Assembly: GCA_030627205.1 (NCBI GenBank) | Contig: DAOUSN010000003.1 | Location: forward strand, 34,343-98,342 | Length of the DNA: 64,000 nucleotides | Reading direction: 5' to 3' | Source of the DNA: Methylococcaceae bacterium | GTDB lineage: Bacteria; Pseudomonadota; Gammaproteobacteria; Methylococcales; Methylomonadaceae | In this document: in pieces, positions 3,844 to 64,000 of the stretch | How positions within the stretch are numbered: the stretch's first letter is position 1 | Layout: each line of letters starts with the position of its first letter | The notes under the pieces: generated by a model | What the model was told of the DNA's origin: nothing | The model's database searches: none | The model's input: only the letters and a program-made list of their open reading frames with translations | Translations under genes and position numbers: made by a program

Positions 3844-3853
3844 GGAGAAAATA

Positions 3854-5074
3854 ATGAAAAGAGTAGTAGTGACAGGATTAGGAATTGTTTCAAGTATAGG
3901 TAATAATAAAAATGAAGTGATTTCTTCTTTAAAAGCAGGACGCTCAGGTATTTCTTTCGCTGATATTTATCAACAAATGGGGTTTAGAAGTCATGTGCAT
4001 GGTGCGATTAATATTGATCAAGATGCGTTTATTGATCGAAAAGTTAAACGGTTTATGGGCGACGGCGCAGCGTTTAATTATATTGCCATGCAGCAGGCCA
4101 TTATTGATTCTGGATTGAAAGAGACTGACGTTTCAAATTTTAAAACTGGCTTAGTAATGGGGTCTGGTGGCCCATCAACAGCGAATCTTGTTGAAGCGGC
4201 TGATTTACTCCGCAGTAAAGGTATTAAACGGGTAGGCCCTTATCGGGTTACTCGTACTATGTCGAGTACAAATACGGCGTGTTTAGCCACCCCCTTTAAA
4301 ATTAAAGGAGTTAATTACACCATTAGTTCTGCTTGTGCAACTAGCGCGCATTGTATTGGTCATGCAATGGAATTAATTCAGATGGGTAAACAAGATATTG
4401 TCTTTGCAGGCGGAGGTGAGGAAGTTCACTGGACAATGTCAATGTTATTTGATGGCATGGGAGCGTTATCCTCTAAATATAATGACAGTCCAGAAACAGC
4501 ATCAAGAGCTTATGATGCTACTCGTGATGGCTTTGTTATTTCAGGGGGTGGTGGGGTTTTAGTGATTGAAGAATTAGAACATGCAAAAATACGAGGTGCA
4601 AAAATTTATGCAGAATTAACTGGTTATGGAGCAACTTCAGACGGTTATGATATGGTTCAGCCTTCTGGCGAAGGCGCAGTTCGTTGTATGCGGCAAGCTA
4701 TGGCTACTGTTGAAGGAAAAATTGATTATATTAATGCCCATGGAACAAGTACTCCTGTAGGTGATAAACGAGAATTAGAAGCCTTGCGTGAAGTTTTTGG
4801 TGCAGATAATATCCCTGCATTGAGTTCAACCAAATCGTTAACAGGTCATGCTTTAGGGGCGGCAGGAGTTAATGAATCAATTTATTCACTATTAATGATG
4901 GAATCTAACTTTTTAAGTGCTTCGGCTAATATTAATGAGTTAGACCCTATAGCCGAAGGAATTCCTATTGTTCGTAAGTTTCAAGATAACGTGACTTTAA
5001 ATACGATTATGTCTAATAGTTTTGGGTTTGGTGGCACGAATGCGACTTTAATTTTTCAACGTTATAACGATTAA
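3854..5074 (+). CDS. fabB: Beta-ketoacyl-ACP synthase I FabB
   Basis: KAS motifs: [36 protein letters not shown]. Directly after fabA. Confidence 0.95.
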
Positions 5075-5095
5075 AAACTAGTAAATAGAATTTGA

Positions 5096-6022
5096 ATGAA
5101 AATTATTTTTGCAGGAACTCCCGACTTTGCACTACCAGCATTGCGAATGCTTATTGATTCTAAGCATGAAATTTGTGCTGTTTATACGCAACCAGATCGC
5201 CCTGCTGGACGAGGGCGAAAATTAACCGCATCCCCCATTAAAAAGCTTGCTTTAGAAGCAAGTCTCACTGTTTTTCAACCTGAAAACTTTAAATATAATG
5301 AGGACTTAAAACTATTAAAAAGCCTTAATGCCGATATAATGATTATCGTCGCCTATGGACTTATTTTACCGCAAACTGTATTGGATACACCTAAAAAAGG
5401 CTGTTTAAATATTCATGGTTCATTATTACCTCGCTGGCGTGGGGCTGCACCAATTCATCGGGCGTTGATGGCTGGAGATAAAGAAACCGGCATAACCATT
5501 ATGCAAGTGATTCAAAAACTAGATGGGGGGGATATGTTACATAAAGAATATCTCCCTATTGGTGAACAGGATACTACTAGTGATTTACATGATAAATTAT
5601 CAGAACTAGGGGCGCTGGGTTTAGCTAAAGTCTTGTTACAATTTGAACAAAGTTGTTTACAAGCTGAAACTCAAAATGAAAGCTTAGTGACGTATGCGAA
5701 GAAACTTCAAAAATCTGAAGCGTTATTAGATTGGACTCAAACTGCGGAAAAGTTAAATCGTAAAGTTAGAGGTTTAAATAGTTGGCCAGTCGCTCACACT
5801 CGTTATCAGGGACAAAATTTACGCATTTGGGTAGCTCAGAAGGTAGATAATATAGAGCAGAAGATAGAAGTCGGTTGTGTTTTTAGTGAAGGTAAGCAAA
5901 TGTTAGTTGGTACTGGTGATGGGATTTTAAGTTTATTAGAAGTACAATTACCTGGTGGAAAACGTGTGTCTATTCAGGACTTTTTAAATGCACATAATGT
6001 TAATGGTGTTAAATTAAGCTGA
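5096..6022 (+). CDS. fmt: Methionyl-tRNA formyltransferase
   Basis: MKIIFAGTPDFALPALRML, NIHGSLLPRWRGAAPIHRA motifs. Confidence 0.95.
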   Translation: MKIIFAGTPDFALPALRMLIDSKHEICAVYTQPDRPAGRGRKLTASPIKKLALEASLTVFQPENFKYNEDLKLLKSLNADIMIIVAYGLILPQTVLDTPKKGCLNIHGSLLPRWRGAAPIHRALMAGDKETGITIMQVIQKLDGGDMLHKEYLPIGEQDTTSDLHDKLSELGALGLAKVLLQFEQSCLQAETQNESLVTYAKKLQKSEALLDWTQTAEKLNRKVRGLNSWPVAHTRYQGQNLRIWVAQKVDNIEQKIEVGCVFSEGKQMLVGTGDGILSLLEVQLPGGKRVSIQDFLNAHNVNGVKLS

Positions 6023-7314
6023 TGAATCTAAGACACTTAGCAACACAAATTCTATTATTAGTCCTTAAAGATGGTCGTTCTTTGACGAACTCTCTTGATA
6101 AACAGTTAGAGAGTTCCAGTAATCCTAAAGATAAGGCTTTTATTCAAGCTTTATGTTATGGCGTATTACGGGATTATCATCGGTTGGAATTTTTATTAAC
6201 CTCGTTACTGGCTAAACCTTTACGGAATAAAGATACCGATATAAAAATTTTAATGCTAATAGGTTTATATCAATTACGAACAATGCGCGTTAAGCCTCAT
6301 GCGGCAGTTTCGGAAACAGTTGCTGCTGTAGGTAAAAAATCATGGGCAAAAGGGGTGATTAACGGGGTGCTACGGCAGTATTTACGGGAGCAGGAAAAAT
6401 TAGAATTACAAATTGATAATAATTTAGTTGCTAAGTATTCTCATCCTCAATGGATTATTGAGCAAATTGAAACAGATTGGGGGCAGCAAGCTCCTTGTAT
6501 TTTTGAAGCTAATAATCAACATCCGCCAATGGTGTTGCGAATCAATTTAAGACAAACCACTCAAGCAGATTATTGTCAATTATTAAATGAGAATAATATT
6601 GCGGCGGAAAGCGTTAATTTTAGTCAAACAGCGATCAAATTGACTCAGGCAATGACGGTTGAGCAATTGCCACATTTTAATAGCGGTTGGGTTTCAGTAC
6701 AAGATACAGCGGCACAATTTGCAGCTCCCTTATTACAACTTGAAAAGGGGCAGCGGGTTCTTGATTTATGTGCAGCTCCTGGAGGGAAAACAGCGGCGAT
6801 GCTAGAATTACAACCTTCCTTACAACTAACTGCCGTTGATATTGATGAAACCAGATTATTACGCATTAATGATAACTTACAACGTTTAAAATTATCTGCT
6901 AAAGTAATAACTGCTGATGCAATGCAGCCTGAAAAATGGTGGGATGGTATTCCTTTTGAACGAATTCTTTTGGATGCACCTTGTTCTGCGCTTGGAGTAA
7001 TACGCCGACATCCTGATATTAAGATTTTACGCCGTGTTAATGATATTGAAAATTTAGTTAGATTACAGTCGAAGATTTTAGAAGCCGCATGGAATCTATT
7101 GGCTGATGGTGGCATTTTACTTTATGCAACCTGCTCTGTGTTAAAACAAGAAAATGAACTACAAATATCAAATTTTTTAAGCAGTCATCCTGATAGTTTT
7201 GAAATTCCTATAAATGCAGATTGGGGGATAAAAGAAATTTTTGGACGGCAAATCATAGTAGGGGATAATGGGATGGATGGATTTTATTATGCACGTTTAA
7301 GTAAAAAAATCTAA
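6022..7314 (+). CDS. rsmB: 16S rRNA (cytosine-967-C5)-methyltransferase RsmB
   Basis: NusB-like N-terminus, VLDLCAAPGGKT, LLDAPCSALGVIRRHPDIK, LLYATCSV. Overlaps the fmt stop by 1 nt. Confidence 0.95.
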   Translation: MNLRHLATQILLLVLKDGRSLTNSLDKQLESSSNPKDKAFIQALCYGVLRDYHRLEFLLTSLLAKPLRNKDTDIKILMLIGLYQLRTMRVKPHAAVSETVAAVGKKSWAKGVINGVLRQYLREQEKLELQIDNNLVAKYSHPQWIIEQIETDWGQQAPCIFEANNQHPPMVLRINLRQTTQADYCQLLNENNIAAESVNFSQTAIKLTQAMTVEQLPHFNSGWVSVQDTAAQFAAPLLQLEKGQRVLDLCAAPGGKTAAMLELQPSLQLTAVDIDETRLLRINDNLQRLKLSAKVITADAMQPEKWWDGIPFERILLDAPCSALGVIRRHPDIKILRRVNDIENLVRLQSKILEAAWNLLADGGILLYATCSVLKQENELQISNFLSSHPDSFEIPINADWGIKEIFGRQIIVGDNGMDGFYYARLSKKI

Positions 7315-7315
7315 A

Positions 7316-7357
7316 TTCTCCCCATTTCTCAATATTATATTTATAAAATGAGGAGAA
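7316..7357. terminator. Candidate bidirectional terminator between convergent rsmB and rubredoxin genes
   Basis: TTCTCCCCATTT ... AAATGAGGAGAA inverted repeat (12 bp stem, 1 mismatch) in the convergent intergenic gap. Confidence 0.5.
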
Positions 7358-7372
7358 ATTAGATAACAGTTA

Positions 7373-7546
7373 CTAACTTAATAATTTTTTAAACATAATC
7401 TTGAGTGCACCGCATTTTGGGCAACCCCAGTCATCAGGGACATCAGCCCATAATGTTCCAGCTTTCAAACCATTTTTAGGATCACCTACAGCCTCATCAT
7501 AAATATGCCCACACGTTTTACATTTATATCTTTTAAAATCTGCCAT
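7373..7546 (-). CDS. Rubredoxin (57 aa)
   Basis: Missing from the ORF track because of its length. The minus strand reads MADFKRYKCKTCGHIYDEAVGDPKNGLKAGTLWADVPDDWGCPKCGALKIMFKKLLS*, with two CxxC rubredoxin knuckles. Confidence 0.95.
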   Translation of the reverse strand: MADFKRYKCKTCGHIYDEAVGDPKNGLKAGTLWADVPDDWGCPKCGALKIMFKKLLS

Positions 7547-7598
7547 TATTATTTCTCTTTGAATTATTATAGAACAGATAATATACCCTACTAATTAA

Positions 7599-8192
7599 AT
7601 GCAGACTAATAATTATTTTAAAATTAAATTAAAAAAATTATGGTTAATAACCATTAAGATGTTCTTATTACTCAGTTTATTTCCTCAAATTATTTATGCT
7701 AGTGAGTTTTCAACACACATTAAAACAGCAGAACTTAAGGTTCATGAAGATTGGTATCAACTTAAAGTAAATATTATTTACCACCTTAGCCCAATAGCTA
7801 TTAAAGCAATTCAAAGTAGTATTCCCTTATCGTGGTGTTTAAAAATTAAGTTAAAAAAAATACAGCCTCTTTGGAATAAAACGCTAGTTAGTAAAAAATA
7901 TTGTTATATAATTCGTTATCATGCATTATTAAATAGTTATAGTGTTAGTCATGAAAATATGGCTAAAAATAAACATTTTCATTCTTTAGAGGCAGCGTTA
8001 GCTAGGATGTCAAATATACGTCAATTAAACATTATCAAAGTCTCAAAAATTGAAAAAAATAATGCCTATCAGCTAGCCATAAAATTGCAACTTGATAGAG
8101 AAGCATTACCTTTACCATTGAGACCTGTTGCTTATCTTAATTCAAACTGGGATTTATCCAGTCATTGGTATATATGGAAACTACGACCATAA
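7599..8192 (+). CDS. DUF4390-type secreted/membrane-associated protein
   Basis: Signal-like N-terminus. Position directly before and overlapping an NtrY-like kinase, as in many gammaproteobacteria. Confidence 0.6.
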   Translation: MQTNNYFKIKLKKLWLITIKMFLLLSLFPQIIYASEFSTHIKTAELKVHEDWYQLKVNIIYHLSPIAIKAIQSSIPLSWCLKIKLKKIQPLWNKTLVSKKYCYIIRYHALLNSYSVSHENMAKNKHFHSLEAALARMSNIRQLNIIKVSKIEKNNAYQLAIKLQLDREALPLPLRPVAYLNSNWDLSSHWYIWKLRP

Positions 8193-10342
8193 GGCTTCCT
8201 ATTAGTCTTTTTATTTTAACGTTGTTTGGGCTTGTTTTATTGTCTTTGCAATTAATGAGTTCAGCGACTCAAGAAACCTCTCAATTAAGTGATATTTATT
8301 CATTATTATTATTAGTTAATACCTTAGGAACAGCCGCTTTATTAGCACTAGTTGGAATCAATGTTTATTCTTTAACGCGAGAATTAAAGAAAAAAGAAGC
8401 AGGATCACGGTTAACGATACGGATGGTTTCTTTATTTGTTTTATTAGCATTAGCCCCAGCTACGATTGTATTTTATTTTTCAGTGCAATTCTTACAACAA
8501 GCGATTAATAGTGGGTTTAATGTTGAAATAGATAAAGCCATGGAAGATGCGTTAGAACTTAGTCAAGCCTCTTTAGATCAACGTATGCGCTGGCATTTGA
8601 AGCAAACTCAACAATCAGCAACCAGCTTACAAAATAAATCTGAAACCTTATTAGCATTAGAATTAACAACGTTAAGAGAATCGCTTAACGCATTAGAAAT
8701 TACCCTGTTTTCTAAGCAAGGACGTATTATTGCCTTTAGTAGTATTAATCCTAGTGATATTTTACCTAAATTACCTGATGATTATGTTTGGTTACAATTA
8801 AGACAAAATAAGAATTATATTAATTTAAATACCGATGATGATAGCTTGAGTATTCAAGTAATGATTGTTATTAATGGTGATAAAACCCGTTATTTACAGG
8901 TCTTATACCCTGTCCCAGTTAGAATCTCTGATTTAGCTGATTCGATAGAGTTTGCTTTTGTTCGTTATCAGGAAATGAGTTTTTTACGTGACTCATTAAA
9001 GTTGAGTTTTTTTCTAGCATTATTGTTAGTCCTTTTATTAAGTTTATTAGCAGCAATTTGGGTTGCCTTTGTCAGTATTCGCCATATTGTTGCCCCCGTT
9101 AAAGAATTAGTCAAAGGAACAAAAGCAGTTGCCGCAGGTAATTATGAACAATTATTACCAGTGATGACACAAGATGATTTAGGGTTTTTAGTTGAGTCAT
9201 TTAATCAGATGACAAAACGTATTGCTCAGACAAGAGACATTGCGCGTATTGCTAGTTTAGAAGTTGAAGAGCAACGGGCTTATTTAGAATCTATTTTGGC
9301 AAATGTAAGTGCAGGGGTGATGAGTTTCGATGCTGATTTTTATATTCGCACTAGCAATCAAGCAGCTTATCGAATTTTGCATTGTGATAAAAATTGTTTT
9401 ATTGGGCAGTCATTAATAGTTATTATTAAAAAATTACCTGAAATAGCCGATTTTTTTAGTGCGGTTTTAACCTTAATCAAGAAAAATAATGATGTTTGGC
9501 AACAACGAATTGCTTTTTTAGGCGTGAGTGGTCGACAAGAATTATTATGTCGTGGTACACCGTTATTTTCACAAGAAGGTTTGCGTGTTGGAGCTGTGGT
9601 AGTTTTTGATGATTTAACTGATTTAATTCAAGCCCAAAAAAATGCAGCATGGGGAGAAGTTGCACGGCGATTAGCTCATGAAATTAAAAATCCATTAACG
9701 CCAATACAATTAGCGGCAGAACGATTACAACATAAGCTTGCACAAGAATTACAGCCACAATCAGCAGATATTTTAAGACGTTCAACTAATACAATTGTTC
9801 AACAAGTTGAAGCAATGAAACAAATGGTGGATGATTTTTCAGAATATGCCCGCCCCTCTAAAAAACAAGCGGAGGCAATTAATTTACCTGATTTCATACA
9901 GGAATTATTATTATTATATCGAACGCAAGGGCAAATTAATTTTAAGGTAGCAGCTGAGGCTAATGCGACAATGATTCATGCTGATCCGATTAATATACGT
10001 CAGGTATTACATAATTTATTAAAAAATGCCCAAGAAGCTATGGGTGATACGGGGATAATTGAGATAAAATTAACGCAAATACAGCGTAATAATACCAATT
10101 ATATTGAATTAGGAGTTTATGATCAAGGTTGTGGAATTAGTGCCGATAAAATTGAAACTATTTTTGAACCTTATGTGACCACAAAAGTGAAAGGGACGGG
10201 ATTAGGTTTAGCGATTGTTAAAAAAATTATTGAAGAACATGGCGGGATTATTTGGATAGATAACCACTATACACAAGGTGCAGGATTTATTATTCAACTT
10301 CCTTGTATTAAAAATCATCTAGTTGATTTTTCTCCAGAGTAA
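8165..10342 (+). CDS. ntrY: NtrY-like transmembrane sensor histidine kinase (HAMP, PAS, HisKA, HATPase)
   Basis: N-terminal TM segments, HAMP region, H-box RRLAHEIKNPLTPIQLAAERL, N-box HNLLKNAQEAM, G-box TTKVKGTGLGLAIVKKI. Confidence 0.85.
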   Translation: MVYMETTTIRLPISLFILTLFGLVLLSLQLMSSATQETSQLSDIYSLLLLVNTLGTAALLALVGINVYSLTRELKKKEAGSRLTIRMVSLFVLLALAPATIVFYFSVQFLQQAINSGFNVEIDKAMEDALELSQASLDQRMRWHLKQTQQSATSLQNKSETLLALELTTLRESLNALEITLFSKQGRIIAFSSINPSDILPKLPDDYVWLQLRQNKNYINLNTDDDSLSIQVMIVINGDKTRYLQVLYPVPVRISDLADSIEFAFVRYQEMSFLRDSLKLSFFLALLLVLLLSLLAAIWVAFVSIRHIVAPVKELVKGTKAVAAGNYEQLLPVMTQDDLGFLVESFNQMTKRIAQTRDIARIASLEVEEQRAYLESILANVSAGVMSFDADFYIRTSNQAAYRILHCDKNCFIGQSLIVIIKKLPEIADFFSAVLTLIKKNNDVWQQRIAFLGVSGRQELLCRGTPLFSQEGLRVGAVVVFDDLTDLIQAQKNAAWGEVARRLAHEIKNPLTPIQLAAERLQHKLAQELQPQSADILRRSTNTIVQQVEAMKQMVDDFSEYARPSKKQAEAINLPDFIQELLLLYRTQGQINFKVAAEANATMIHADPINIRQVLHNLLKNAQEAMGDTGIIEIKLTQIQRNNTNYIELGVYDQGCGISADKIETIFEPYVTTKVKGTGLGLAIVKKIIEEHGGIIWIDNHYTQGAGFIIQLPCIKNHLVDFSPE

Positions 10343-58697: not shown

Positions 58698-59186
58698 CTA
58701 ATTACTTAATTTTTTCTGGCAATTACGACAAGAACCCTGTAATTCAAAAATAATATTTTGAGGGGTGAAAGCATTTTGTACTGCCAATTGAAAAATACGC
58801 TCGTAAATCTGTGGGGCTTCCACTTCATCGGTTTGATGACAATGATTGCAAATTAATAAGATTGAATGATGTGCTGTTTCAGGTTTTAAACAACCGATAA
58901 AGGCATTTAAAGACTCTATTTTATGCACTAAACCTGCCTTTAAAAGAAAATCCAGAGCGCGATAAACTGTCACGGGCTTGGCTTTGGGATCGTCTAAATG
59001 TAACGTTTCTAGTAAGTCATAAGCTCCTACGGCTTTATGATTAGACCAAACTAATTTAAAAATACGTTTACGTAGGGGCGTTAAGCGAAGTCCTTTTTGT
59101 TGACAAATTTTTTCAGCGGATTTTAACGCTTGATTAATACAGCTTTGGTGATTATGATTTTGTTGTTCAAATAATACATCTGGCAT
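58698..59186 (-). CDS. zur: Fur-family regulator, Zur-like
   Basis: KGLRLTPLRKRIFKLVWSNHKAVGAYDLLETL; PVTVYRALDFLLKAGLVHKIESLNAFIGC; C-terminal CxxC pairs; Zur-type box upstream of the operon. Confidence 0.85.
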   Translation of the reverse strand: MPDVLFEQQNHNHQSCINQALKSAEKICQQKGLRLTPLRKRIFKLVWSNHKAVGAYDLLETLHLDDPKAKPVTVYRALDFLLKAGLVHKIESLNAFIGCLKPETAHHSILLICNHCHQTDEVEAPQIYERIFQLAVQNAFTPQNIIFELQGSCRNCQKKLSN

Positions 59187-59207: not shown

Positions 59208-61259
59208 TTAAAAGCTTATTCTAAGCCCTAACTCTGCTCCCCGTCCTGCTTCGGGTGCAAAATTTCTTAAATGTGAACTCGCATTACGGATGTTTTTATT
59301 CAATAAATTATTGCCTTTTACAAATAAGAGTAATTTACTGTCCTTATTTAATTTTAATTGATAACTTACTGCTGTCGATAGTAAAAAATATCCTGATGTC
59401 GTGGATTCATTATCACCTGCATGATGTTGCGCTTCGACACGGGTAAAGCGTAGATTAGCTGATAACTCATCATTATTTGCATAATCTAATTGCATCCCGT
59501 AACGTAAGGGCGGCAAACGGGGAACATCTCCCCCCTGATTAAAACTTCCACGAACATAATCACCAAACAAAGTTAAATCGACATTAGAAAAACTAGACTC
59601 CCAGACAGGAAAAAGAATTTTGGATTCAAACCCATAAAAACGCGCATCGTTTTGACGAGTAGCTAACACGGCTAAACAGCTTTCATTGTTGGTACATTGA
59701 CTCACAAAAGCTTCACTCTCTAAGTTATAAAGCTGACCATTATGATATTGATTAATATAATCTTTATTCCAACTATGAAATAAATTTATTTCCGTATTCG
59801 CCCATTGGTAATCGCCTTTAAAACTTAATTCTAAATTATAAGTCGTTTCCACCCCTAAATCACTTTGACCTTGCTCATAACTGTTCGTGGCAAAATGCAC
59901 CCCATCAGCAAATAATTCTTGTGCTTCAGGCGCACGTTGGGCATAACTAAAACTTAATCCCAAAGTATTTTCTTCATTAAAATCCCATAAAGCTGACGCT
60001 GACGCACTAACTGGGGTATGAGTCTTTTTTTGAAAACCTTCTGCATCAATTGTTTGATGCTCTATACGCAGACCCATTTCATACGTCCAATCGCCTAGAA
60101 AAACATTTTCTACCATAAATATGCCATAAGATTTAATATCTGAGAGAGGCACAAACGCTTCCTCACCGATGGCTGAAAATTGTTTTGAATCTATTTGAAA
60201 ACCAACCACACCTTGGTCAATAAATCCTATATTATCATGTAAAACTTCAACGCGCCCTTCAACGGCATCATTTAAAAATTTTGTTCCCACTTCACCTGTT
60301 TCTTCAATTTCACTATGTTCGTAATCATTAACCCCTAACCGTAATTTTACCATTTTTATGCCTTCAAATGGACGCTTAATTTCAGCTTTCATATCGTAGC
60401 GTGTTTGTTTTAAGGCAATACGAACTTTTTCATCAGCGATTGGAATCCCGTAATTATTATCCAAGTAATTGACAGAAAACCCAATAAATCCCCAATCATC
60501 TATCCATGATCCGCCTAAGGTTGCACTCCAGCTTTCAGCATCCGTATTGTCGATAAAACCGTGGGTATTATTCTCAAAATTTTCATTATTTCCATTATTT
60601 CCATTCATCGCATTACCTGCGATACCCACGTTATTACGTTGACGATAAAAACCATCCAGATGCCAAGCGAATTTCTTATATTGTCCATCGTGACTTAATA
60701 CGCTACTAGTTTCATCGGAAACCGAATTAAAGCGTTGTTCTAAGGCGGTATGAAATGAGTTTTCTAGCAAGGTTTCAGGAATACGATTATCTAAAACATT
60801 AATAATACCGCCAATCGCACCACTCCCATAAAGTAAGGTAGCTGGCCCTCTGATAACTTCAATTCTACGCGCTAATAAGGGTTCGGTACTATTAGCATGG
60901 TCAGGACTTAAACTGGACGCATCTAAACTATCAAGACTGTTTTGTAACACTTTAACCCGCGAACCTGTTTGCCCACGAATCACGGGTTGACCTACGCCTG
61001 CTCCGAAAGAAGCATTATGAATACCCAATTCGTGTTTCAGTGTTTCACCAATGCTATTCGCGGTTTTCATTTCTAATTCCTTCCCCTCTAATATATTAAC
61101 AGGCAATACGGTTGCTGCTTTTGTATTAGCTAAGGGAGAAGAAACTAATACATCCTCTAGTTTTATAACGTTATCAGCCGCAAATGAAACTAATGGAATT
61201 AATGACATTAATGACATTAATGAAACTAAAAAAATGAATAAAATAGAAATTTGTCTCAT
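59208..61259 (-). CDS. znuD: TonB-dependent outer-membrane receptor, ZnuD-like
   Basis: IGETLKHELGIHNASFGAGVGQPVIRGQTGSRVKVLQNSLDSLDASSLSPDHANSTEPLLARRIEVIRGPATLLYGSGAIGGIINVLDNRIPE; C-terminal beta-barrel ending in F. Confidence 0.8.
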   Translation of the reverse strand: MRQISILFIFLVSLMSLMSLIPLVSFAADNVIKLEDVLVSSPLANTKAATVLPVNILEGKELEMKTANSIGETLKHELGIHNASFGAGVGQPVIRGQTGSRVKVLQNSLDSLDASSLSPDHANSTEPLLARRIEVIRGPATLLYGSGAIGGIINVLDNRIPETLLENSFHTALEQRFNSVSDETSSVLSHDGQYKKFAWHLDGFYRQRNNVGIAGNAMNGNNGNNENFENNTHGFIDNTDAESWSATLGGSWIDDWGFIGFSVNYLDNNYGIPIADEKVRIALKQTRYDMKAEIKRPFEGIKMVKLRLGVNDYEHSEIEETGEVGTKFLNDAVEGRVEVLHDNIGFIDQGVVGFQIDSKQFSAIGEEAFVPLSDIKSYGIFMVENVFLGDWTYEMGLRIEHQTIDAEGFQKKTHTPVSASASALWDFNEENTLGLSFSYAQRAPEAQELFADGVHFATNSYEQGQSDLGVETTYNLELSFKGDYQWANTEINLFHSWNKDYINQYHNGQLYNLESEAFVSQCTNNESCLAVLATRQNDARFYGFESKILFPVWESSFSNVDLTLFGDYVRGSFNQGGDVPRLPPLRYGMQLDYANNDELSANLRFTRVEAQHHAGDNESTTSGYFLLSTAVSYQLKLNKDSKLLLFVKGNNLLNKNIRNASSHLRNFAPEAGRGAELGLRISF

Positions 61260-61380: not shown

Positions 61381-61755
61381 TTAGCTACGCAAAAAACCTA
61401 ATTCAAATACTTGCGGTTTAAGTTTTTCGGTGAGGGTTTTATAAACGGTTTCAAAGGGGGTAAAATCGGTAGGAATGGCATCACTACTTGCATTACGTTT
61501 TTTGAGAGCATTGCGGATTTGATACCAGCCAACATCGGGGCGGTTTAGTTTTAATTCTTCGCGGACAGTATAGACATCAGTTTCAGAAAAATAAGCTTGC
61601 CATAATTCGCGTCCTGCATTTAAGACGGCTTTGGCTTGTTTGGAGAGTTTATTTTTCTGTAGATATTCCACCATAAAATCAGATTCAAAACGGTCGGGGG
61701 CGTTTACTTCGTTAAGTATTTTGCCGTTGTAAACATCCAGTACAAAGAAGTCTAC
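61381..61755 (-). pseudogene. Remnant (C-terminal part) of a larger gene, possibly a large restriction/N6-methylase protein
   Basis: The frame extends upstream of the track ATG at 61674: ...ILQASSRVDFFVLDVYNGKILNEVNAPDRFESDFMVEYLQKNKLSKQAKAVLNAGRELWQAYFSE...ELKLNRPDVGWYQIRNALKKR...LKPQVFELGFLRS*. No plausible ATG in the extension; it runs into the 3' end of the methyltransferase gene. Confidence 0.6.
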
Positions 61756-62807
61756 GCGACTACTTGCTTGCAGTATTGGTGAATTGCATCTGCTCTATTT
61801 AAATTATTAAGTAAATAAATCAAACTATTACCCACTGCATGAGCTAAATTCACAGGTACCGCATTACCAATTTGTTTATATTGCGCTGACATTGACCCCA
61901 TGAACTGCCAGTCATCAGGGAAAGTTTGTATGCGTGCATACTCACGCACGGTTAAAGGACGCGTTTCATCAGGATGACAGCGTTCGGTTTGATTTTGAGC
62001 GGGTGAGCAGGTCAGTGTTAAACTTGCTTCATTCCATGACAAACGTCGCGCCATGCCTGTTTTTCCACCGCCTAGAAAATAACTTTTTTTCATGTATTCC
62101 CGCTGAATATCTTCGGGTAAATGTCGCCAACAACCACCCGCTGGTACTAAATCTAATACAGCCTTCTTTTTCGGTGGATACAGTTGCCCAAGGGATTCTG
62201 GTACATCACAATCATATAATTCACCTGCTTTTAAGCCATCTCGCAAGGTCATTACGCGTTCATGCTCTTTAGGAAAACTAAAGGCGGCTTTATTCGCCAA
62301 ATCATTACGCACGCCCACCAAAAACAAGCGTTCACGTTTTTGTGGTACGCGGTAGTGCATCGCTTTTAAAACCGAAGAAGCCACTAAGGTGTATCCTAAA
62401 TCGACAATCACATTTTTAATGATTTCCAAGGTACGTCCGCCATCGTGACTTAATAAGCCGCGAACATTTTCCGCTAAAAACACTGCTGGCTGAATTTCCC
62501 CAATCGCTCGGGAAAATTCAAAAAACAACGTACCACGTACATCATCAAAACCGCCCCGTTTACCTGCATACGAAAATGATTGGCACGGAAAACCGCCTGA
62601 GACAAAATCAACATTGTAGCGATACGGCATAAAGTCTATATTCGCAATATTGTCCTCCATAATGTTCCACTGTGGGCGATTATGGCGCAACGTGGCACAG
62701 GCGTGTTTATCAAGTTCGTTGAGTAACACCGCGTTAAAGCCTGCTTTTTCCAAGCCCAGTGCTAAACCACCCGCGCCTGCAAATAATTCAATGGATTTAA
62801 AACTCAT
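61752..62807 (-). CDS. DNA (cytosine-5-)-methyltransferase of a type II R-M system
   Basis: FKSIELFAGAGGLALGLEKAGF; VSGGFPCQSFSYAGKRGGFDD; VFLAENVRGLLSHDGG; RLSWNEASLTLTCSP; QIGNAVPVNLA. Confidence 0.96.
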   Translation of the reverse strand: MSFKSIELFAGAGGLALGLEKAGFNAVLLNELDKHACATLRHNRPQWNIMEDNIANIDFMPYRYNVDFVSGGFPCQSFSYAGKRGGFDDVRGTLFFEFSRAIGEIQPAVFLAENVRGLLSHDGGRTLEIIKNVIVDLGYTLVASSVLKAMHYRVPQKRERLFLVGVRNDLANKAAFSFPKEHERVMTLRDGLKAGELYDCDVPESLGQLYPPKKKAVLDLVPAGGCWRHLPEDIQREYMKKSYFLGGGKTGMARRLSWNEASLTLTCSPAQNQTERCHPDETRPLTVREYARIQTFPDDWQFMGSMSAQYKQIGNAVPVNLAHAVGNSLIYLLNNLNRADAIHQYCKQVVA

Positions 62808-63541
62808 AAGTCAAACTGCTCAAAGCCTTGGTATTTTTTAAAAGCGAGCAAATACAGACTTTTTGGTAAATTAGGGGATATTTTTTTCAGTTCATCAAAA
62901 ACGGTGTTTACACTGCTTCTTTGTGACAGTGAGTTAACCACTTCTTCAATCACAGCGGGTAGTTTTTCACACAACTGTTTAAAAGCAGTGGGTTCGCCTG
63001 TGACTATTTCGTAAAATTTATCAATGGAAACTCGACGAATTTTCTCATGAAAAATTTTGTTTTTATTGATACTCGCTACCCATTTCACATTTTGGCTTTT
63101 AGTGGCAATGACCTCAACCAGCATACAGATTGCATCAGGTTCTTTAAGTAGCCTATCTTGCATTCCAATATAGGTTTTTTGTGCAGAGGATGAATTCATG
63201 GTGTTGTGCTTATTTTTCATTTCAACATAAATTTTTTGCGTATCATTCACTACATCAAAACCCTCGTCAGGTACTCGCCAACCCTCACCGATATATTTGA
63301 AAATATTTTGATGAAAATAACCGATATGATTAGTATTGGATTTATCTAATTGTCTTAAAATTTCAGATTCAACCACTTCTTCAATACTTTTATCATAAAC
63401 TTTTGCATCAAATGTTAGTTTGACAGGGTCAATAATATTCTTATTGAATTCAGATAAATTAATGGTAAAGCGATATTTTTCAACCGTTTGTTGGACGTGA
63501 TTGAACAAATCTATATTGCTAATAAATGATAAGTTATTCAT
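62804..63541 (-). CDS. Eco47II/Sau96I-like type II restriction endonuclease
   Basis: NNLSFISNIDLFNHVQQTVEKYRFTINLSEFNKNIIDPVKLTFDAKVY...NHIGYFHQNIFKYIGEGWRVPDEGFDVVNDTQKIYVEMKNKHNTMNSSSAQKTYIGMQDRLL. ATGA-coupled to the m5C methyltransferase. Confidence 0.8.
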   Translation of the reverse strand: MNNLSFISNIDLFNHVQQTVEKYRFTINLSEFNKNIIDPVKLTFDAKVYDKSIEEVVESEILRQLDKSNTNHIGYFHQNIFKYIGEGWRVPDEGFDVVNDTQKIYVEMKNKHNTMNSSSAQKTYIGMQDRLLKEPDAICMLVEVIATKSQNVKWVASINKNKIFHEKIRRVSIDKFYEIVTGEPTAFKQLCEKLPAVIEEVVNSLSQRSSVNTVFDELKKISPNLPKSLYLLAFKKYQGFEQFDL

Positions 63542-63621
63542 TAAAATGTTACTCTTCGTTTTTGATTCTACTTATTGACTAAATTATGATTATAGCCTCT
63601 ATCTATCCAATAATCATAACA

Positions 63622-64000
63622 TCAATATAAACTATTCATTACAGTCGCATACGATGTCGGCAAAAAATAACAGCGCATAATCTGAGTCCCAATATGGGCG
63701 GAAACTTCATCTAACGCCTCTTTAGGGTATTGACTCGCCGACTTGCCCCACTTCACCGTCTTTTTTTTCAAAAATGGCAACACATCCGAAGTTTTCATTA
63801 ACGCGGCTTTTTCAGTATCAATTACCGCTAAAAAAGGCGGAATCGTTTCCCCTTTATTAAGCCCATCTTGCACATAATGCAATAATTGGGTAAACATCGC
63901 ATAACTAGAATGCTTGCCCGTATCTTTCGCTTCAAACCAAATTTCATCGGTACGAATATCAACTAAACCTTTGGTGTAACTTTTAAGTCCTAAGGCTTTA
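63622..64000 (-). pseudogene. 5' (N-terminal) part of a large gene, open to the window edge, possibly the other half of the 61.4-61.7 kb remnant
   Basis: Minus strand from the edge: KALGLKSYTKGLVDIRTDEIWFEAKDTGKHSSYAMFTQLLHYVQDGLNKGETIPPFLAVIDTEKAALMKTSDVLPFLKKKTVKWGKSASQYPKEALDEVSAHIGTQ, then a short tail IMRCYFLPTSYATVMNSLY*. The frame has no start inside the window. Confidence 0.6.

Follow-up and report, generated by a model that had tools for sequence, protein, structure and literature searches.

We analysed a window of 64,000 nt from a methane-oxidising bacterium (G000:C42:34343-98342), which is the whole stretch presented above and the right edge of which is the end of contig C42. Downwards from position 64000, the minus strand carries first a 5′ gene part, then a restriction–modification (R-M) unit and a 3′ gene part, and after these the genes of a TonB-dependent receptor and of a Fur/Zur-type regulator. 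The two gene parts are the remnants of one single-chain R-M gene of about 800 aa and are called arms in the following (Table 1).

Table 1. Features of the R-M locus and its neighbours; positions are those of the window, except in the last line, where they refer to locus L168 (contig C32 of genome G607)
Feature	Position	Strand	Evidence
5′ arm, residues 25-132 of the ~800-aa single-chain R-M gene	63683-64000	minus	90.9% nt identity, no gaps, to G001 nt 72-389
Gene scrap, out of frame: nt 475-484 (ACTCAGATTA) and nt 563-595 (ATTATGCGCTGTTATTTTTTGCCGACAT..TATGC)	63646-63682	minus	exact blocks in G005, p<0.005 (shuffling)
Leader of the R-M pair, common only to the G622 chimera	63542-63645	minus	75% identity, 110 nt, E 3.6e-15
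Eco47II-family Type II REase, intact	62804-63541	minus	245 aa; PF09553 5.9e-87, profile 1-201/202
Cognate m5C DNA methyltransferase, intact	61752-62807	minus	351 aa; PF00145 2.4e-82, full-length; TIGR00675 above cutoff
3′ junction, scrambled	61713-61751	minus	13-nt block weakly resembles a later stretch of the displaced gene (p about 0.005)
3′ arm, residues 695-804 and stop of the single-chain R-M gene	61381-61712	minus	61390-61712 against G001 nt 2084-2406, 88.9% nt identity, no gaps
TonB-dependent receptor, neighbour outside the R-M locus	59208-61259	minus	receptor–regulator pair conserved in G001, G003, G005
Fur/Zur-type regulator, neighbour outside the R-M locus	58698-59186		beside the receptor
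HindVP-type pair between residues 1-28 and ~742-802 of the gene, third genus (G607:C32, L168)	3899-6127		PF09519 1.2e-137; m5C MTase

The R-M pair and the gene remnants on its two sides

An earlier note on this DNA had described a coupled Eco47II-like endonuclease and m5C methyltransferase, and profile searches confirmed both. The endonuclease is full-length, as expected of an Eco47II-type pair, and overlaps by 4 nt with the adjoining methyltransferase gene, in which the motifs GGFPCQSF, ENVRGLL and QIGNAVP are intact; the pair spans window positions 61752-63541. The ratio dN/dS was 0.11 for the endonuclease (compared with G030) and 0.09-0.11 for the methyltransferase. The pair is presumably expressed and restricts DNA, and judged by its family it probably cuts GGNCC. 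Its leader was absent upstream of the Eco47II homologues in G030 and G003. A perfect 10-bp inverted repeat lies in this leader (63610-63619 / 63584-63593, TTATGATTAT/ATAATCATAA, with a 16-nt loop); the segment 63584-63619 is possibly a candidate operator, and the repeat is not exactly conserved in the leader of the G622 chimera.

The fragments that flank the pair match the plasmid protein WP_233945584 at its opposite ends (aa 22-129 and 689-797), and ~798-aa proteins on Acinetobacter and Fluviibacter plasmids likewise match them at their two ends. An intact homologue of 804 aa is present in the same genus (G001); the 5′ arm matches its residues 25-132 with 95% amino acid identity, and the 3′ arm its residues 695-803 with 90%. 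The 5′ arm moreover shows 92% identity to G000:C33:48948-49265, and it includes the putative nuclease motif D-x(8)-E-x-K (VDIRTDEIWFEAK). Searched alone, neither fragment had a match in Pfam. The suggestion of the earlier note that the fragments are the start and the end of one long N6-methylase/restriction protein is thus upheld by the matches to G001 and WP_233945584 together with the N6-methyltransferase and D..ExK motifs, and the case in which the fragments belong to different proteins was not encountered. Between the arms ~1,490 nt of the displaced gene are missing, corresponding to residues ~199-694 (the methyltransferase and target-recognition region), and 1,934 nt including the R-M pair occupy the place of this lost core. 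With fragments of the displaced gene on both sides and an intact allele in relatives, the locus belongs to the R-M substitution loci.

The two borders differ in detail. The 5′ piece extends to approximately residue 199, interrupted by two internal deletions and a frameshift, and the odd tail that had been noticed after SAHIGTQ is real: two scraps of the displaced gene (nt 475-484 and nt 563-595) follow there after two small deletions, the second scrap carries one 2-nt slip, and the shifted frame stops at 63622. The upstream frame (63622-64000) is also real, except that it had been taken to be cut by the window edge and actually stops at the end of contig C42; the first 71 nt of the gene fall beyond this contig end and are not joined to the window. 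The downstream frame (61381-61755) had been read as continuous from the 3′ end of the methyltransferase. It is derived from the gene up to 61712, and the 42 nt up to the methyltransferase stop are scrambled or unassigned; nor is it a complete small gene, being the C-terminus of an ~800-aa protein that is found in 333 GTDB contigs. Between the two junctions of the window no direct repeat was found beyond chance, neither the short repeats anticipated by the earlier note nor a target duplication.

Positions 63899-64000, at the end of C42, are identical over 102 nt to G000:C33:48948-49049, followed by 12% divergence, as in an assembly repeat node. G000 is a fragmented genome, and C33 holds a second start of the displaced gene; the gene starts on C33 and C42 represent either two loci or the alleles of two strains.

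The receptor–regulator pair next to the R-M locus had no R-M remnant beside it in G001, G003 and G005, where the upstream neighbours are pnp, trpD or thrS. The idea of a defence hotspot as a fixed chromosomal site was rejected on these grounds, since the receptor has other upstream neighbours and the R-M gene lies elsewhere in sister genomes. A strictly orthologous allele from before the substitution was not found in the sister genomes, in which the intact gene sits elsewhere. It is the gene family that forms the hotspot, not a place on the chromosome. Copies of the gene end at contig ends in G000, G003, G005, G490, G600, G614 and G616. Such breaks were considered as a sign of variation within populations and discarded, as ~15 were seen against ~10 expected in a rough estimate from contig number.

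The displaced gene family, probably of single-chain R-M enzymes

The displaced gene is, because of its motifs, most likely a single-chain, Type IIG-like R-M enzyme. In the family, D38, E47 and K49 of the N-terminal D-x(8)-E-x-K motif are fully or almost fully invariant; DMCCGVGNLE and NPPY, motifs of N6-methyltransferases, are conserved, and a variable core (~380-420 and 500-620) is framed by conserved ends. Nuclease, N6-methyltransferase and specificity region are therefore present in one chain, as in Type IIG/IIL enzymes. The order of an N-terminal D..ExK, N6-methyltransferase motifs and a C-terminal variable specificity region is that of DrdV/MmeI-type enzymes, and the best fold match of a moderate-confidence model was DrdV (E 2.4e-9, with a low TM-score of 0.26 and a model mean pLDDT of 65). 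The displaced gene differs from these enzymes in its length (~800 compared with ~1000 aa) and in that it matched neither the MmeI domain in Pfam nor, by sequence, any solved structure in the PDB.

One scan of GTDB recovered the ~800-aa family in Proteobacteria, Bacteroidota and Campylobacterota, and among the 80 best of the 333 contigs the frame was unbroken in 74. In the taxonomic family of the window genome, the gene occurs, whole or in part, in 25 of the 237 genomes. The gene was not found in 50,697 GenBank phage records. Six IMG/VR contigs (L229-L234) encode the intact single-chain gene, which may travel on proviruses. In Chromatium okenii (L055, 5899-11294), a full gene is followed by two further copies in tandem, each of which lacks the nuclease region and has its own start; their flanks are 95-100% identical and their cores 50-70%. 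This array looks like a set of specificity cassettes or of extra methyltransferases. Another copy, at L211 (G639:C249, 1875-6650), contains a stretch of Ns within its variable core. After it come a probable methyltransferase (weak MmeI_Mtase match) and a 222-aa gene that matched nothing in Pfam, likely another R-M pair beside this copy.

Chimeras in other genera and the separate histories of arms and cassette

Two further genomes among the 237, G622 and G607, carry Type II R-M pairs between remnants of the gene. In G622:C15, from a second genus, an Eco47II chimera has the same arrangement and is homologous to window positions 63651-61388; its endonuclease is frameshifted, its 3′ arm begins at residue ~678 directly after the methyltransferase stop, and upstream of the pair it keeps the same gene scrap as the window, including a 28-nt piece. 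The two chimeras have the R-M unit, the leader and the junction positions in common. The Eco47II pairs of G030 (beside ligA) and G003 have no gene arms. The third genus contributes an unrelated pair of HindVP type, in which the stop codon of the methyltransferase sits in sequence of the displaced gene read in another frame. At least two independent captures are hence on record, all in the orientation of the displaced gene. The repeated layout in G622 and the unrelated pair in G607 demonstrate replacement and support the view, already taken in the earlier note, that one R-M module displaced the core of another.

Other arrangements were seen as leads, and they were counted in a search that was not built as a test. 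An intact gene is followed by a cassette and then by a duplicated 3′ end of the gene in L112 (5974-9661; RhuM, repeat of 98 bp, 89%), in L101 (6001-9086; BrnT/BrnA, 117 bp, 86%) and in L208 of G640 (3846-8863; ABC-3C with SMEK and DUF2326, 497 bp, 77%). Orphan 3′ ends of the gene, which are leads of the same standing, occur in G022, G500, G504 and G631. In L167 (G610:C10, 5214-6050), residues 1-147 and 685-803 are fused in frame into a 278-aa frame next to a PDDEXK_2 (Rpn-type) gene. This fusion was considered as an empty site that preceded R-M capture and was rejected; its borders at 147 and 685 differ from those of both captures, which indicates an independent deletion of the core.

Arms and cassette have different relatives. 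In a tree of the 3′ arm, the window joins the intact alleles from its own genus (100/99); the chimera of G622 joins the other copies of G622 and relatives (100/100). A joint clade of the two Eco47II chimeras was rejected (delta lnL 74, p-AU 1.7e-62), in a test of lineage specificity that used the 323 nt of the 3′ arm alone, the 5′ arm of G622 being decayed. In the tree of the R-M core, by comparison, the window groups weakly with G622 (72/74), and the cores of G622 and G030 are about equally close to it. The arms of the window differ from intact alleles almost solely at synonymous sites, with dN/dS of 0.01-0.04 for the 5′ arm and 0.13-0.18 for the 3′ arm. From these low ratios and from the grouping with its own genus it follows that the arms were parts of functional genes in this genus until not long ago. 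The cassette, with a methyltransferase dS of 0.82 between the window and G622, is by this measure older than the arms in this position.

Origin of the arrangement and its meaning

We consider it probable that the Eco47II pair displaced the core (~199-694) of a Type IIG-like gene, and that the old ends of this gene now act as non-coding homology arms through which cassettes are exchanged. The first capture would have occurred by illegitimate joining, as suggested by the scrambled junctions and the lack of a repeat. Afterwards, the conserved gene ends would serve as homology arms, and the cassette between them would be exchanged, like an allele, into the intact copy of a recipient; the old gene would be dead at the copy in the window. 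The layout of the family suits such exchange, with conserved ends around a variable core and with partial copies in Chromatium okenii that have near-identical flanks and divergent cores. Exchange via homologous gene ends is, as far as sequence comparison can tell, the likeliest route. In the simplest reading, cassettes between the arms enter intact resident copies by recombination, or else the arms are repeatedly converted by such copies. A second copy (that on C33 in G000, or the other copy in G622) would yield the same arm pattern through gene conversion, and both routes use the gene ends as homology arms.

A distinctly less probable history starts from one old illegitimate insertion–deletion, after which the chimera was inherited or moved as a block; its arms became genus-specific by gene conversion, and its ends played no role in spread. 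Scrambled junctions without long repeats fit this history, and both genomes with the Eco47II chimera hold another copy of the family, in each case on a contig C33 (G000:C33 and G622:C33). However, it requires that arms were converted in both genera while the core was spared, and the capture of another R-M type by the gene family in G607 makes a one-off event less likely.

Rather improbable is an insertion of the R-M pair next to the gene that created a long target duplication, of the Nobusato/Kobayashi type, followed by a deletion between the copies that removed the middle. Insertion of R-M genes with long, variable target duplication was described by Nobusato 2000 and Furuta 2010, as cited in PMC3031569 and PMC3077401. 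The intact gene, defence cassette and duplicated 3′ end in L112, L101 and G640 resemble the insertions that these sources describe, whereas in the window and in G607 duplication is absent, the arms are single copy and the middle of the target is lost.

We give very little credence to an assembly artefact, in which reads of two strains or of two gene copies were misjoined around the R-M pair. The contig does end inside the gene, at 102 nt that are identical in C33 in the manner of a repeat node; however, the pair and both arms lie within one contig, only the last 102 nt are ambiguous, and the independent genome G622 has the same arrangement. Least credible of all is that the fragments are separate small working genes, such as a nuclease domain on its own and a short protein made from the C-terminus. 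Both frames are open and the low dN/dS of the arms could point that way, but this value is explained by recent disruption. Moreover, the 5′ frame runs out into a frameshifted tail, a start codon is lacking at the beginning of the 3′ frame, and the homologues are single ~800-aa proteins.

R-M replacement is already known as a class from Helicobacter and from enteric bacteria (PMC4615327, PMC12707154, PMC3077401). Replacement at one locus has been described for PabI/hrgC in Helicobacter, and for the PabI family replacing a Type II R gene in Campylobacter (PMC4615327). In those cases, as here, an R-M gene gives way to a new module and survives as fragments; in contrast, the displaced gene in our case encodes a single chain, the recipient position is not one constant locus but a gene family, and no fewer than two unrelated Type II pairs were captured. 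Alternative R-M cassettes at one locus, such as DpnI/DpnII/DpnIII and those of the enteric immigration control region, also place alternative restriction modules between homologous flanks; there these flanks are housekeeping genes (reviewed in PMC12707154), whereas here they are the displaced R-M gene's own ends and lie at different chromosomal places. The novelty lies in the repeated capture of unrelated R-M pairs by one gene family and in the split history of arms and cassette.

If the exchange through gene ends that we prefer is extended to the whole family, its ends would form a general dock, at which homologous recombination swaps specificity cores and unrelated defence modules between genomes without integrase or transposase. 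We put this extension forward tentatively and regard it as somewhat unlikely; it takes in the Eco47II and HindVP R-M pairs, as well as RhuM, BrnT/BrnA and ABC-3C beside duplicated ends.

The turnover of defence genes that have no integrase or transposase of their own calls for an explanation. If the ends of a common R-M gene do serve as homology arms for unrelated modules, this turnover would require ordinary recombination only, and the orphan gene ends in defence islands would be explained. New defence cassettes would then be predicted between residues ~1-200 and ~680-804 of the family, and the family would offer a clean test system, because tree tests can separate the histories of arms and core.
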